A stretch of DNA of 45,000 nucleotides from NCBI RefSeq assembly GCF_000758165.1, contig NZ_JNUP01000027.1, positions 1 through 45,000 on the forward strand. Direction: 5' to 3'. Below are positions 2,671 to 45,000 of this stretch, piece after piece; the stretch's first letter is position 1, and every line of letters starts with the position of its first letter. Under the pieces are notes generated by a model, which was not told the origin of the DNA, did not search any database, and was given only the letters and a program-made list of their open reading frames with translations. A program made the position numbers and the translations under genes. The stretch is from Spirochaeta lutea (lineage in GTDB: Bacteria > Spirochaetota > Spirochaetia > DSM-27196 > Salinispiraceae).

Positions 2671-3879
2671 ATGAAGGTATTTTTTAATGCCGCGGATCGT
2701 TTGGATCTGCGGGAGTTTGGGATAGATATTCCTGCCGGACGGGATAACGCCCTGCGGACCCTGGAGCTGTTGAAGCAGCGCTGGGAAGCCAAGGGTGGTG
2801 CCATGCCGCCTGAGTGGTTGTCGGGGAATACCGCAGAACCGCCCTCCATGGATGATATCCTGCGGGTGCATGATCCGGTATACGTGCAGTCCCTGTTCCG
2901 GGGCGGTGAGTCCCTGGAGGGAGAGATTATGCGGGCCTTCGAACTGGTCCGCCCCGACGGCAGCTACCACCGGTACCACCCCGGTCCGGAATCCAGGCCG
3001 TTAACCGAGCTTTTTTCCATCCTCCTGAGCAGGGGAGGGGGTACCAAGGCGGCGGGTCAATGGGCCTTGGGAATCCATCCTGACCAGAAGGAAGACCGAA
3101 AGAGCAACCAGGATCATTTCGGCCCAGAGACGGCGGAAGGTGAACCCCTTCCGACGGAGACTTCGGCCGAGATTAGGGGTGGGCAGACCCCGCCGAACGA
3201 GGCGTTCTACTGCGGGGGCGGGTTTCACCATGCCATGTATAGTTTTGGTGAGGGATTTTGTTTGTACAACGATGTCCTGACGGCCATCCGGTCCTTTCAG
3301 GACCAGGGTATTATTCGGAATGCCTGGATCATCGATGTGGATGCCCACAAGGGGGATGGAACCGCGGCCCTGACCCAGGACGATCCCACCCTGGCCACCT
3401 TGAGCGTCCATATGGCTCATGGCTGGCCCCTGGATATCACAGCCCAGGAGGCTGCGACCCGGCCTGATCGGAGCCCCCTATCGTTTCTACCCAGTACCGT
3501 GGACATTGGAATCACTCAAAACGAGGATTGCGACTACTGCATCCGTCTGGCCCAGGGGCTGGATCTGCTGTGGAACAGCCGGGGCGGGACGGTTACCGAT
3601 GATGCGGGCAGGGCCCGGCCGGTGCCCCATCCGGACCTGGTGTACGTCCTCCTGGGTGCGGATCCCTTCGAGGAGGATGAGTTGCCATCGGCGAAGCTTT
3701 TGGCCTTGAGCCGGGACCAGATGTGTAACCGGGACCGGTTGATTCGGGAGTTTTTTGTGAAGCGGGGGGTGCCTGCGGCGTACCTGATGGCTGGAAACTA
3801 CGGGGAATCGTCCTGGAAGGTGTACAGTGATTTTCTGTCCTGGAGTCTCGGGATGGAGGATGAGTCCGGGACTACCTAG
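2671..3879 (+). CDS. Histone deacetylase-fold (HDAC superfamily) amidohydrolase
   Basis: Zn-dependent deacetylase fold. Bacterial members act on acetylpolyamines, acetyl-CoA synthetase or other acetylated amides; the substrate here is unknown. The catalytic His-His pair is in GGFHHAMYSFGEGFCLYND (about residue 188), the metal ligands are in IDVDAHKGDG (near 225) and GADPFEEDELPS (near 330), and a C-terminal AGNYGESSW segment lies where the active-site Tyr is expected. The 402 residues exceed the usual 310-350. Part of the excess is a charged, Pro-rich insert at about residues 135-180, just before the His-His motif. GGAGTGAGG immediately precedes the ATG. The gene follows phosphofructokinase on the same strand but is separated from it by a palindromic element. 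Confidence 0.88.
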   Translation: MKVFFNAADRLDLREFGIDIPAGRDNALRTLELLKQRWEAKGGAMPPEWLSGNTAEPPSMDDILRVHDPVYVQSLFRGGESLEGEIMRAFELVRPDGSYHRYHPGPESRPLTELFSILLSRGGGTKAAGQWALGIHPDQKEDRKSNQDHFGPETAEGEPLPTETSAEIRGGQTPPNEAFYCGGGFHHAMYSFGEGFCLYNDVLTAIRSFQDQGIIRNAWIIDVDAHKGDGTAALTQDDPTLATLSVHMAHGWPLDITAQEAATRPDRSPLSFLPSTVDIGITQNEDCDYCIRLAQGLDLLWNSRGGTVTDDAGRARPVPHPDLVYVLLGADPFEEDELPSAKLLALSRDQMCNRDRLIREFFVKRGVPAAYLMAGNYGESSWKVYSDFLSWSLGMEDESGTT

Positions 3880-3946
3880 GCATGCCCGGGGGCGATGCTG
3901 CACCTGCCCTATCCCTCCAGCCTTGCGAACCATGGCACTTGCAAGT

Positions 3947-3970
3947 ACATGCACATGCACATGCACATGC
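3947..3970. repeat. ACATGC hexamer microsatellite (4 copies)
   Basis: Four perfect tandem ACATGC units followed by ACA, in the gap between the HDAC-like gene and the second palindromic element. A candidate slippage locus with no evident coding role. Confidence 0.9.
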
Positions 3971-3991
3971 ACAATGAACGGATAAAAATTA

Positions 3992-4096
3992 TAGTGCGCA
4001 AAAGGTTGTAACTTTTGGCCTCCGCGACACCATCCCTGAGTTAGCCTTCGGAACGCGCCGCTATATCTGGTGTAGTTTACAACCTTTTGCGCACTA
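3992..4096. repeat. 105-bp palindromic intergenic element, copy 2
   Basis: Same family as the copy at 2527 but in the opposite orientation. The ends are TAGTGCGCAAAAGGTTGTAA and its exact reverse complement. Its reverse complement matches the copy at 17441 with about three differences over 105 bp, the closest pair in the window. It lies directly downstream of the terminator of the minus-strand RNA candidate. Confidence 0.95.
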
Positions 4097-4099
4097 TGC

Positions 4100-4129
4100 A
4101 AAAAAAAGAGCCGGCTCTCTAAGCCGGCT
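4100..4129 (-). terminator. Intrinsic terminator of the RNA candidate
   Basis: Read on the minus strand, an 8-bp perfect stem (AGCCGGCT, loop TAGAG, AGCCGGCT) is followed one base later by U8. The plus-strand reading has only a short T run, so the signal is directional towards the minus strand. Confidence 0.85.
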
Positions 4130-4340
4130 TTAGGCACCCGGCCCGCACAGCGGATCATCGGGTGTCACTTGTAACGTACTATCCCGCTCTCTGGGAGCGG
4201 TGATAAAACCTTGTCTGCATTCGCCGGATCATCTCCGGCTATTCCTCTTAGGTGGTGCCATATGCGCCCTCCCATTCTACGCAGTTTCAAGGATGCTTCC
4301 ATGGGAGCTTACGGGCTCCAGGAACCTCGGAATCAATTCT
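4100..4340 (-). ncRNA. Candidate standalone structured RNA, about 240 nt, family unknown
   Basis: A minus-strand unit with its own promoter, no credible reading frame and an intrinsic terminator. Hairpins I can draw from the RNA 5' end are: TTCC-GGAGC closing on GCTCC-GGAA; GCCGGA/TCCGGC; CCGCTC/GAGCGG; CACCCG/CGGGTG enclosing CCGC/GCGG; and the terminator AGCCGGCT/AGCCGGCT. Two long-range pairings, TAGGT with ACCTA and CCTTG-AAA-CTGC with GCAG-A-CAAGG, interleave and would form a pseudoknot. It does not show the conserved cores of tmRNA, RNase P RNA or SRP RNA. A faint resemblance to 6S RNA (CCUUGAAAC, GGCACCACCU) is not enough to name it. It lies between two convergent genes and beyond the serC terminator, so it is not a leader of either gene. 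Confidence 0.6.
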
Positions 4341-4346
4341 ACCTAA

Positions 4347-4375
4347 ATTCTAATACCGGTCTCTGGGGGAGTCAA
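4347..4375 (-). promoter_or_regulatory. Strong sigma-70 promoter of the RNA candidate
   Basis: On the minus strand TTGACT (4375-4370) and TAGAAT (4352-4347) are separated by exactly 17 bp, each hexamer one mismatch from consensus. Predicted transcription start is near 4340. There is no start codon with a ribosome binding site downstream. Confidence 0.75.
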
Positions 4376-4477
4376 GGGAAAGATGAAAGGTTTTTGCGCC
4401 CTGCCTGAGGTCTTCAATCCGGACTGCAGGGTGATTTGCATGCCCCTGGAAGCCTTCCAACTTCCGACAGGGCACAC

Positions 4478-4511
4478 AAAAAAAGCGGGCCGTTTCGGAC
4501 CCGCTTTTTTT
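4478..4511 (-). terminator. Bidirectional intrinsic terminator downstream of serC
   Basis: GCGGGCC, loop GTTTC, GGACCCGC, flanked by A7 on the left and T7 on the right. It is therefore an intrinsic terminator in both directions. On the minus strand it ends the serC transcript about 80 nt after the stop. It also separates serC from the RNA unit further downstream. Confidence 0.88.
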
Positions 4512-4590
4512 CTATCTGACTTCCGGTTCATGGCTGGAGGCGGCCCCGGGGTAAAGACTAACCGCCCCCGGGTACCGATGCCTTCTTACC

Positions 4591-5673
4591 TTAGCCGTGT
4601 TTTTTAGCGAAGTCTGCCATGTATTGGGCCAGAGCCTTGGCGCCTTCCAGGGGCATGGCGTTGTACAGAGATGCTCTGAACCCGCCCACGGAACGGTGAC
4701 CCTTGAGACCTAGCATACCGAGCTCGGCTGTTCCCGCCAGGAATTCCTTATCCAGCTGGGAGTCTGCCAGGGTAAAGACGATGTTCATGTCCGATCGGAC
4801 AGCGGAATCTACGGGTGATTTGTAAAATCCCCCGGCAGCTTCAATCGCATTGTAAACGACTTGGGCCTTCTCCCGGTTCTTCTTCTCAATCCCGGCCAGG
4901 CCGCCCTGGGATTCTATCCAGGTTAGTACCTTGCCCAGGGCGTAGATACTGAACACCGGTGGGGTATTATAGAGACTGTCGCTGTCCGCGTGGGTAGCGT
5001 ATTTGAGGTAAGCACCCAGGTTTTGGTTGGCTTTGGCAATCAAATCATCCCGCATGATAACCAGGGTTACCCCCGAGGGGCCCAGGTTTTTTTGGGCGCC
5101 GGCATAGATCATGCCGAAGTCTTCCACCGGAAGGGGGCGGCTCATGATGTCGGATGACATATCCGCAATGAGGGGTGCCTCGGTTTTCGGGAAGCTTTTC
5201 CACTGGATACCCCCGATGGTCTCGTTGGAGGTTATGTGCAGGTATTCAGCTGACGGGGTTGTTTTTACGCTGCTCGGATCGGGCAGGGTGGTGTAGTTGG
5301 TATCCTTGCCGTCATACAGCACCTCTACGTCTCCGTAGATCTTTGCATCTGCTATGGCCTTTTTTGCCCAGGCACCGCTGTTGATGAAGTTGCTAGTCTT
5401 CCCGGGTCCCAGCAGATTCATGGGGATCATAGAAAACTGCATGGTCGCTCCGCCCTGAATGAACATGACCTTGTAGTTGTCCGGAAGACCCAGCAGGCTC
5501 TTAACCTTGCTGATGGCTCCGTTATGAACCTCATCGTATTCTTTGCTTCGGTGACTGGTTTCCACCAGAGACAGCCCCATCCCTTTGTAGTCTACCAGTT
5601 CGGCCTGAAGTTCTTCCAATACAGGCAGGGGTAGGGTGGACGGGCCGGCGTAAAAATTAAATTTTCTAGCCAC
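4591..5673 (-). CDS. serC: Phosphoserine aminotransferase
   Basis: PLP-dependent class V aminotransferase that converts 3-phosphohydroxypyruvate plus glutamate to phosphoserine (serine synthesis) and acts on the equivalent intermediate in pyridoxal phosphate synthesis. The N-terminus FNFYAGPSTLP is diagnostic, as are the substrate-loop motifs ETSHRSKEYDEVH and FIQGGATMQFSMIP. The PLP lysine lies in YAGAQKNLGPSG, and the C-terminus has LKGHRSVGGFRASLYNA. The 360-residue length is normal. The start is preceded by AGGAGG, about 8 nt upstream. The upstream PycTM-like gene ends only 9 bp before it, so the two are probably co-transcribed. Confidence 0.96.
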   Translation of the reverse strand: MARKFNFYAGPSTLPLPVLEELQAELVDYKGMGLSLVETSHRSKEYDEVHNGAISKVKSLLGLPDNYKVMFIQGGATMQFSMIPMNLLGPGKTSNFINSGAWAKKAIADAKIYGDVEVLYDGKDTNYTTLPDPSSVKTTPSAEYLHITSNETIGGIQWKSFPKTEAPLIADMSSDIMSRPLPVEDFGMIYAGAQKNLGPSGVTLVIMRDDLIAKANQNLGAYLKYATHADSDSLYNTPPVFSIYALGKVLTWIESQGGLAGIEKKNREKAQVVYNAIEAAGGFYKSPVDSAVRSDMNIVFTLADSQLDKEFLAGTAELGMLGLKGHRSVGGFRASLYNAMPLEGAKALAQYMADFAKKHG

Positions 5674-5682
5674 AGGTTCCTC

Positions 5683-6240
5683 CTATAGAACGTGTTCAAG
5701 GTACACGGCAAATATGCTCGTGAGTTCAAAGCTAATGGCAACCACGAAGGCCAGGAGGCCCCTGGTCAGCCACTTGTTTTTGCGTTTATTTATTCTGGCA
5801 ATGGCGGTTACCTGCTGGGCGAACAGTAGGTAGGTGCCGTTGTCATCGGCCGTAACCTCCAGAAGATACCCGGCGTATTCCTGGGCTGTACTAAATTGGG
5901 TGATCCCTCCGAAGAAGGTGGGATTGGGCCCTTTGGGGTGCCGGGGACCGGGAGCTTCCTCCTCCAGAGTATGAAGTTCCAGGCTCTGATTCACAATTTT
6001 GGGTCGGATGACCATAAGTAGGCAGAGAATGCTTATCAGAGCAGCTCCGAAGTACAGAAACACGAGTATTACCGATGCCGGATTATACAGGATCTTATCA
6101 AAATGAACGATGAAAAACACCATAAAAACCCCCAGGGTGGAGAGCAGGGCGGTAGCCTTGCTGTCGTTACGTTGGAGGATCTGTTGTTCGGTATCTAAGA
6201 TCCGAAGCAGTACATCAAGCTTTTCTCGAATGGTCTTCAT
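5683..6240 (-). CDS. PycTM/DUF5706-like membrane protein (orphan Pycsar-effector fold)
   Basis: A 185-residue protein resembling the Pycsar effector transmembrane domain (DUF5706). It opens with an amphipathic helix ending in a D-S-K-A motif at about residues 26-29, followed by two membrane segments (about 30-47 and 57-80). A cytoplasmic part carries NPTFFGGI (about 108) and an acidic helix, then QVTAIARINKRK and a final membrane segment (about 158-180). In Pycsar defence such proteins permeabilise the membrane on sensing a cyclic pyrimidine nucleotide. No cyclase gene lies nearby, and the gene is instead the first gene of a unit with serC. The fold assignment is from motif memory and the defence role is not established here. 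A non-defence sensor or housekeeping role is equally possible. Confidence 0.6.
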   Translation of the reverse strand: MKTIREKLDVLLRILDTEQQILQRNDSKATALLSTLGVFMVFFIVHFDKILYNPASVILVFLYFGAALISILCLLMVIRPKIVNQSLELHTLEEEAPGPRHPKGPNPTFFGGITQFSTAQEYAGYLLEVTADDNGTYLLFAQQVTAIARINKRKNKWLTRGLLAFVVAISFELTSIFAVYLEHVL

Positions 6241-11343: not shown

Positions 11344-11448
11344 TAGTGCGCAAAAGAATGTAAAAACCACCGGATATAGCGGCTCAATTCAAAGGACACA
11401 CTAGGGGTAGGGTCGTCAGGGTCGAAAGTTACAACCTTTTGCGCACTA
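11344..11448. repeat. 105-bp palindromic intergenic element, copy 3
   Basis: TAGTGCGCAAAAG at the left and CTTTTGCGCACTA at the right, 105 bp. The interior keeps CCGGATATAGCGGC. Its last three bases (CTA) are the reverse complement of the TAG stop of the minus-strand Nudix gene, so the element end contributes that stop codon. It fills the gap between two convergent genes. Confidence 0.93.
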
Positions 11449-17440: not shown

Positions 17441-17545
17441 TAGTGCACAAAAGGTTGTAAACTACACCAGATATAGCGGCGCGCTCCGAAGGCTAACCCA
17501 GGGATGGTGTCGCGGAGGCCAAAAGTTACAACCTTTTGCGCACTA
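17441..17545. repeat. 105-bp palindromic intergenic element, copy 4
   Basis: Starts TAGTGCACAAAAGG and ends CTTTTGCGCACTA. It differs from the reverse complement of the 3992 copy at about three positions. It lies immediately downstream of the arginine operon terminator, and read in that direction it has one open 35-codon frame. Confidence 0.95.
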
Positions 17546-37087: not shown

Positions 37088-37192
37088 TAGTGCGCAAAAG
37101 AATGTAAACTACCCTAGTTGTAGCGTAATCCCCAGCCACACTCCATAGCTATGGTGTTGTATGGGGGAGTTTTTACAAGCTTTTACGCACTA
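37088..37192. repeat. 105-bp palindromic intergenic element, copy 6
   Basis: Left end TAGTGCGCAAAAGAATGTAAA, right end with one changed base (TTTTACGCACTA). The centre holds a perfect ATGG-type hairpin, CCATAGCTATGG, inside TCCCC/GGGGG. It lies between the DUF2147 and DUF2007 genes, about 60 bp downstream of the latter. Confidence 0.9.
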
Positions 37193-44789: not shown

Positions 44790-45000
44790 ATCATGGAGAG
44801 TTTGATCCTGGCTCAGAACGAACGCTGGCGGCGCGTTTTAAGCATGCAAGTCGGACGGTAACAGGCCTTCGGGCGCTGACGAGTGGCGAACGGGTGAGTA
44901 ACACGTAGGTGATCTGCCCAGAGGTTGGGGATAGCCTGTGGAAACACAGGGTAATACCGAATGAGCTTATTTTACTGTGGTGAAATAAGGAAAGGGGCTT
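44790..45000 (+). rRNA. rrs: 16S ribosomal RNA, 5' part (cut by window edge)
   Basis: The universal AGAGTTTGATCCTGGCTCAG site begins at 44797, followed by GAACGCTGGCGGCG and the spirochaete-typical GTTTTAAGCATGCAAG. Conserved GAGTGGCGAACGGGTGAGTAACACG follows at about 44880. The 5' end is placed about 7 nt before the universal site by analogy with E. coli. Only the first 210 nt are present. Confidence 0.97.

Follow-up and report, generated by a model that had tools for sequence, protein, structure and literature searches.

A small, apparently translated RNA with a fixed distance between Pro-Pro codons and a hairpin in one class of spirochaetes

The window analyzed here, a 45,000-nt stretch of Spirochaeta lutea DNA (contig NZ_JNUP01000027.1, positions 1 to 45,000), contains a gap between serC, which ends at 4591, and the end of a convergent gene (2671-3879, plus strand). 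The initial annotation had placed in this gap a stand-alone unit on the minus strand, made up of a promoter, a structured RNA of about 240 nt and a terminator, and had described it as free of any plausible ORF and as a member of no known RNA class. This raises the question of what kind of RNA is encoded here and whether it is non-coding at all.

The promoter and the terminator were both borne out, and the coordinates of all features are listed in Table 1. The promoter consists of TTGACT (-35, 4375-4370) and TAGAAT (-10, 4352-4347) with a 17-nt spacer on the minus strand. It matched the consensus at 10 of 12 positions and was the top one of three promoter-like sites within 3000-6000, where 1.5 were expected by chance. 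In the terminator, the 9-bp stem (4129-4109, minus strand) is followed by a C and then by U8 at 4107-4100. The fold of the 242-nt stretch reached -91.3 kcal/mol compared to -76.3 ± 5.0 kcal/mol for shuffled sequences (z = -2.98; 1 of 200 shuffles equaled it), in agreement with the structured RNA that had been claimed. Upstream of the unit, the terminator expected for serC was found as a terminator-like hairpin at ~4511-4473, which is possibly bidirectional since runs of A and T lie on both of its flanks. A pseudoknot, which had also been suggested, was not called by the single-sequence fold or the family alignments, both made with programs that do not predict pseudoknots.

Other elements of the window were observed as well. 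A MITE-like element of ~105 bp with the inverted arms TTACAACCTTTTGCGCACTA lies at 3992-4096 and abuts the terminator of the RNA, and further copies were located around 2527-2631, 11344-11448, 17441-17545 and 37088-37192. Its 16-base core AACCTTTTGCGCACTA occurred 133 times in the genome compared to 0 for the reversed control, often in pairs 89 bp apart. The 5' end of a 16S rRNA gene is found at 44790-45000, where it is cut by the end of the window.

Table 1. Coordinates of the features of the RNA unit in the window and the evidence for each.
Feature	Position	Strand	Evidence and remarks
Sigma-70-type promoter TTGACT-17-TAGAAT	4347..4375	minus	Sequence; RNA start expected near 4340
Predicted RNA, ~240 nt	4101..4340	minus	Ends inferred from promoter and terminator; homologues
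Shine-Dalgarno GGGAGGG, 5 nt before the start codon	4267..4273	minus	Sequence; AGGAGG-like in all members
Mini-ORF ATG GCA CCA CCT AAG AGG AAT AGC CGG AGA TGA (MAPPKRNSRR*)	4229..4261	minus	Sequence, frame test, synonymous changes
Pro-Pro codons CCA CCT	4250..4255	minus	Present in every member
10-nt spacer, second Pro codon to H1	4240..4249	minus	10 nt in nearly all members, 9 in a few
Hairpin H1, GCCGGA-GAUGA-UCCGGC	4223..4239	minus	Fold; pairing and position kept despite stem replacement in L024, L025 and L278
Hairpin H2, UAUC-A-CCGCUC/GAGCGG-GAUA	4180..4205	minus	Single-sequence fold
Hairpin H3, flanks GUGA and CUAAA	4130..4168	minus	Fold; GUGA-[H3]-CUAAA common to several other families
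Intrinsic terminator, 9-bp stem and U8	4100..4129	minus	Sequence; stem covaries in relatives

The RNA was then compared with the known classes. None of 4227 Rfam families reached its gathering score over the RNA, either in the window or in 20 homologous loci, which upholds the view that it matches no known class. The matches on the locus at E up to 10 were sub-threshold and due to chance only (anti-hemB with 20 bits, and others). 6S RNA (RF00013) gave no match at the locus, in the 20 homologous loci or elsewhere in the genome, and a 6S identity was rejected. ARAGORN found no tmRNA in the window, and no tRNA-like domain with a tag reading frame was seen in the RNA. The genome has its own, separate tmRNA gene at G000:C3:6474-6821, and this identity was rejected, too.

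Relatives of the RNA were found by synteny and by covariance models. When relatives were searched at the DNA level, a single syntenic match came up, directly after serC in genome G003. The DNA downstream of serC was read in 30 loci, 14 of which contained the RNA unit, with most of its sequence diverged beyond BLAST. With a covariance model built on the core (R1), more copies were found in the order, some of them away from serC; a second model (R2, 297 genomes) found the RNA across the class, and a third (R3) in the family of G534. The candidates were read for Shine-Dalgarno (SD), frame, hairpin and terminator before tabulation. The result was 67 loci in 17 GTDB-style families (family labels of the tool) of one spirochaete class, comprising 52 tabulated members and 15 in the family of G534, and most genomes had one credible copy.

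A wider sample of the phylum gave members of the same class and only two outside matches at E<1e-3, which lack SD, promoter and terminator and were for this reason taken by eye as false. The model matches L077, L085-L089, L128, L132, L260, L275 and L276 were likewise discarded by eye. A degenerate pattern scan of genome contigs yielded, among the matches listed, many chance matches in GC-rich genomes and one spirochaete MAG. As judged from these sequences, the RNA gene is deeply conserved across one spirochaete class. The earlier suggestion of a spirochaete-specific regulatory RNA was thus right in its distribution, as the RNA was found only in spirochaetes here, but not in treating it as purely non-coding. 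In G559:C49, two RNA units of different sequence stand in tandem at 64596 and 64881 (L266), ~285 bp apart, and the second copy is outside the count of 67. Another copy, L080 (G038:C323), has a GTG start, Pro-Ser replacing Pro-Pro and no clear promoter; it is perhaps decaying.

The same order of parts was found in nearly every member: promoter, SD, start codon, 0-5 codons, Pro-Pro, 10 nt (rarely 9), H1, more hairpins and terminator. The 5' part between the promoter and the SD was variable. Promoters with at least 9 of 12 consensus matches were present in 43 of the 52 tabulated members, compared to 15% of shuffled upstream sequences.

In the window, the mini-ORF has 10 codons, beginning with ATG at 4261-4259 and ending with a stop codon inside the H1 loop. 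Its start region is conserved class-wide and follows a well-placed SD, at odds with the claim that the locus had no plausible ORF. For an unbiased test of the frame, the SD was chosen for its similarity to AGGAGG and paired with the next start codon, whatever the frame. Pro-Pro was in frame with this start in 48 of 50 loci, at spacings of 3, 6, 9, 12 and 18 nt. The two loci out of frame were L117 and L120, for which the script had chosen the wrong SD. Among close relatives, the differences between the start codon and H1 numbered 20, 28 and 42 at codon positions 1, 2 and 3, respectively, and the Pro codons changed synonymously. Of the 52 members, 37 have CCA and 15 have CCG as the first Pro codon, and none has CCU or CCC; the second Pro codon was CCU (28), CCG (15), CCA (5) or CCC (4), although these counts, like those of frame and codon position, are not phylogenetically independent. 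In E. coli, decoded Pro pairs avoid CCC/U at their first position because CCC/U-C causes frameshifting, and CCA has been described as a pause-tuning codon (PMC8129111). The absence of CCU and CCC from the first position matches this published signature and points to a decoded Pro pair (PMC8129111). By this comparison, the members carry consecutive in-frame Pro codons that appear to be decoded, as in a Pro-Pro pause site. An SD-led mini-ORF was present in all 67 members, and the frame, the codon choice and the synonymous changes indicate translation, and the purely non-coding reading is not supported. These comparisons strongly support that the mini-ORF is translated.

Two other roles of the Pro codons were considered and rejected. 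The GG.GG of the SD pairs with the CC.CC of the Pro codons in many folds (mean P 0.37). A first codon CCU would pair perfectly and lower the predicted exposure of the SD from 0.25 to 0.10, yet it never occurs there, and sequestration of the SD as a conserved function was rejected. In our reading, this absence reflects selection for decoding rather than for pairing. Programmed frameshifting at Pro-Pro was rejected, since in 18 of 52 members a stop follows within two codons in the -1 frame, and neither of the alternative frames remains open throughout. The peptides themselves, such as MKGPPKD, MVGGHNPPD, MACTDGPPWRKG, MTPPDVFCRL, MEEPPIFHGR... and the MAPPKRNSRR of the window, range from 7 to 31 aa and have only Pro-Pro in common, and their recurring Arg follows from the CGG codon of the H1 stem.

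The distance from Pro-Pro to H1 was kept even where the sequence of the hairpin was replaced. SD, start codon, Pro-Pro and a stem at +10 were present in 52/52 tabulated members (the stem of L024 can also begin at +9). In the family of G534, GCCGG started at +10 in 13 of 15 members and the stems of the other two started from +9. Three members had H1 stems of wholly different sequence at the kept distance, namely L024 (GGGGAU/AUCCCC), L025 (GCUGACAU/AUGUCAGC) and L278 (GCCCC/GGGGC). The probability of a stem at +9/+10 by chance was 0.019 for the 6-bp stem of L024 and 0.001 for the 8-bp stem of L025. The stop codon lay within H1 in 27 of the 52 members, beyond H1 in 22 and before it in 3 (L078, L079 and L125), and in these three the position of H1 was also kept. 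Unlike this distance, that from the start codon to H1 varied. The covariance models were built on members with 10-nt spacing and favor such spacing in later finds, so that its constancy is partly ascertained; the members found by synteny are free of this bias and show 10 nt as well. One and the same sequence, GCCGG/CCGGC, recurs in most H1 stems, so an encounter with the ribosome may not be what conserves H1. When the second Pro codon occupies the P site, 13 nt separate its first base from the first base pair of H1. In ribosome footprints, this distance downstream of the first base of the P-site codon corresponds to the mRNA entry of the ribosome. Conservation is highest at Pro-Pro and in its distance to H1, in contrast to the freely variable region between H1 and H3, and this geometry of codons and hairpin points to the ribosome as the partner.

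Covariation in relatives, which had been proposed as a check, was found in the 3' domain. In an alignment of 14 members from three families, 31 cells of the H1, H3 and terminator stems were changed on both sides, compared to 9.4 ± 2.2 in shuffled data, and 98% of the cells were paired. Pairing dropped to 45-47% when the partners were slid by one column. The covarying changes sit in H3 and the terminator, while H1 was invariant in this set. Across the wider set, H1 had UA as its sixth pair in 14 members, UG in 8, GC in 6, AU in 4 and CG in 3, and a non-standard pair in 12. The GUGA-[H3]-CUAAA-[terminator] signature is common to the window and several other families. Taken as sequence evidence, these data strongly support selection on the structure of the RNA beyond the ORF. 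In addition, the 3' domain of L262-L274 (family of G534) resembles, by eye, a three-way junction closed by GGCC/GGCC, and a GGAGGCGCCUAU-like stretch was seen between H1 and the terminator in L109, L111, L125, L133, L110 and L113, from two families.

The genes next to the RNA varied among the loci and, as named from their translations, included serC, phosphofructokinase, uvrC-like, SulP-like, gyrase/ParE B-like, radical-SAM-like and histone deacetylase-like genes, among others. The next gene was convergent in the window and in about half of the representative loci, and some loci had a same-strand gene 100-250 nt downstream. No gene was consistently downstream of the RNA among the representative loci, so the RNA does not appear to be the leader of a particular gene. 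The arms of H1 and the terminator share GCCGG in many members (by eye), but not in L024, L025 or the f15 loci L117, L120 and L124. A cross-pairing of H1 with the terminator was not consistent among members.

The RNA gene is apparently previously undescribed. In the open-access literature, with subscription papers outside the scope, we found no description of such a spirochaete RNA and no dedicated stand-alone RNA built on a Pro-Pro motif. Its nearest known kind is the translated small RNAs. The dual-function small RNAs include SgrS/SgrT, RNAIII/hld, Spot 42/SpfP and SR1/SR1P. Like them, the RNA is stand-alone and structured, with its own promoter and terminator at the sequence level and a short ORF for which comparative evidence indicates translation; their peptide is functional or their ORF incidental, whereas here only Pro-Pro and the hairpin distance are conserved, not the peptide. 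Leader-peptide attenuators such as hisL, trpL and mgtQ of Salmonella (PMC8092293) also have a short SD-led ORF that overlaps or abuts a hairpin, and the position of the ribosome decides the structure of the RNA (PMC8092293 for mgtQ). The comparative evidence likewise indicates a short translated ORF followed by hairpins in our RNA. Attenuators, however, control in cis the gene just downstream, while this RNA has its own terminator, and the genes behind it are convergent or unrelated. The pausing motifs of the Pro-Pro (PPX) type that are relieved by EF-P show the same avoidance of CCU/CCC at the first codon, but are known from ordinary proteins or from engineered leaders (PMC8129111, PMC5021804). 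The cyanobacterial yfr6 (Downstream-peptide RNA) is likewise a presumed ncRNA of ~250 nt with a short conserved ORF, whose recognition rested on synonymous changes and on indels of lengths divisible by three (PMC2864571). In yfr6 an aptamer-like structure of the 5' UTR is conserved, whereas here it is the ORF start and the downstream hairpin; the sequence relation was checked by the Rfam scan alone. Lastly, tmRNA (RF00023) is also structured and carries a short reading frame, but our RNA is without a tRNA-like domain.

From this, we tentatively favor, at somewhat less than an even chance, a gene that stands alone and encodes a small, translated regulatory RNA on which a ribosome pauses at Pro-Pro with H1 at its mRNA entry. 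The ribosome would load at the strong SD and make a few residues ending in Pro-Pro. There it would slow down, owing to slow, EF-P-dependent peptide-bond formation, and the folded H1, with its first pair at the 13-nt position, would act as an added roadblock. A ribosome that proceeds would often terminate within H1 and melt it, as suggested by the stop codon within H1 in about half of the members. The RNA could thereby exist in two states, with the ribosome paused and H1 intact or with the ribosome run through and H1 opened, and the choice would be set by Pro-Pro decoding, that is by EF-P activity, prolyl-tRNA or general translation. The presence of the ribosome may protect the 5' part and control the stability or exposure of the 3' domain (H2, H3 and terminator), which would carry a trans-acting function. 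EF-P is present in most bacteria, and its gene was found once in this genome. On the other hand, two prolines alone make a moderate pause, and the residue after them is often K or V, which is not a strong stall context; both points count against this reading, as do the 22 of 52 members whose ORF extends well past H1. The gene unit, the translation, the fixed geometry and the structured 3' domain are well supported by the comparison of members, and from there we infer the pause, its EF-P dependence, the two states, the output and the trans target. A bolder form, which is possible but doubtful, is that the RNA is the leader of no gene and acts in trans, the ribosome paused on Pro-Pro against H1 being itself the regulated state that reads the capacity of EF-P and Pro-Pro decoding.

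Several other explanations were weighed against the ribosome pause. The strongest, although unlikely, is an sRNA, dual-function or base-pairing, that acts on mRNAs through its 3' domain, with translation of the mini-ORF only stabilizing the RNA and Pro-Pro pausing secondary. The structured, covarying 3' domain with its shared signature, the stand-alone promoter and terminator and the lack of a fixed downstream gene all fit such an RNA, but it leaves unexplained why conservation peaks at Pro-Pro and the distance to H1 next to a freely varying H1-H3 region, and no unpaired seed conserved from family to family was seen. A functional micropeptide encoded by a short mRNA would account for the conserved SD, start codon and Pro-Pro and for the synonymous changes. 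It is improbable, as MKGPPKD, MVGGHNPPD, MACTDGPPWRKG and MAPPKRNSRR share Pro-Pro alone over such different lengths and the recurring Arg is a product of the H1 stem.

Attenuation of a downstream gene was rejected for want of a conserved gene, and we consider it very improbable: a leader-peptide-like ORF, a hairpin and a terminator do stand in series, and some loci have a same-strand gene close by, but the convergent or differing genes behind the RNA and the inconsistent pairing between the arms of H1 and the terminator are hard to reconcile with it. Hardly more can be said for a highly diverged 6S, tmRNA, RNase P or SRP RNA, which we rate slightly lower still. The place of 6S is open in this genome, where none was detected elsewhere, but no Rfam family matched over the RNA in the window or in the homologous loci, tmRNA lies elsewhere, and a translated SD-led ORF is no feature of 6S. 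Each motif is common by itself, as the many chance matches among those listed by the pattern scan illustrate, but synteny, frame conservation, covariation, promoter conservation and recurrence in 17 families make a functionless chance alignment of motifs extremely improbable.

The RNA illustrates how a conserved mini-ORF can hide inside an apparently non-coding RNA. If the ribosome pause is real, spirochaetes would possess in this RNA a natural, stand-alone sensor of Pro-Pro decoding and a new, testable regulator; and if the pause itself is the state that is regulated in trans, the RNA would represent a new category.
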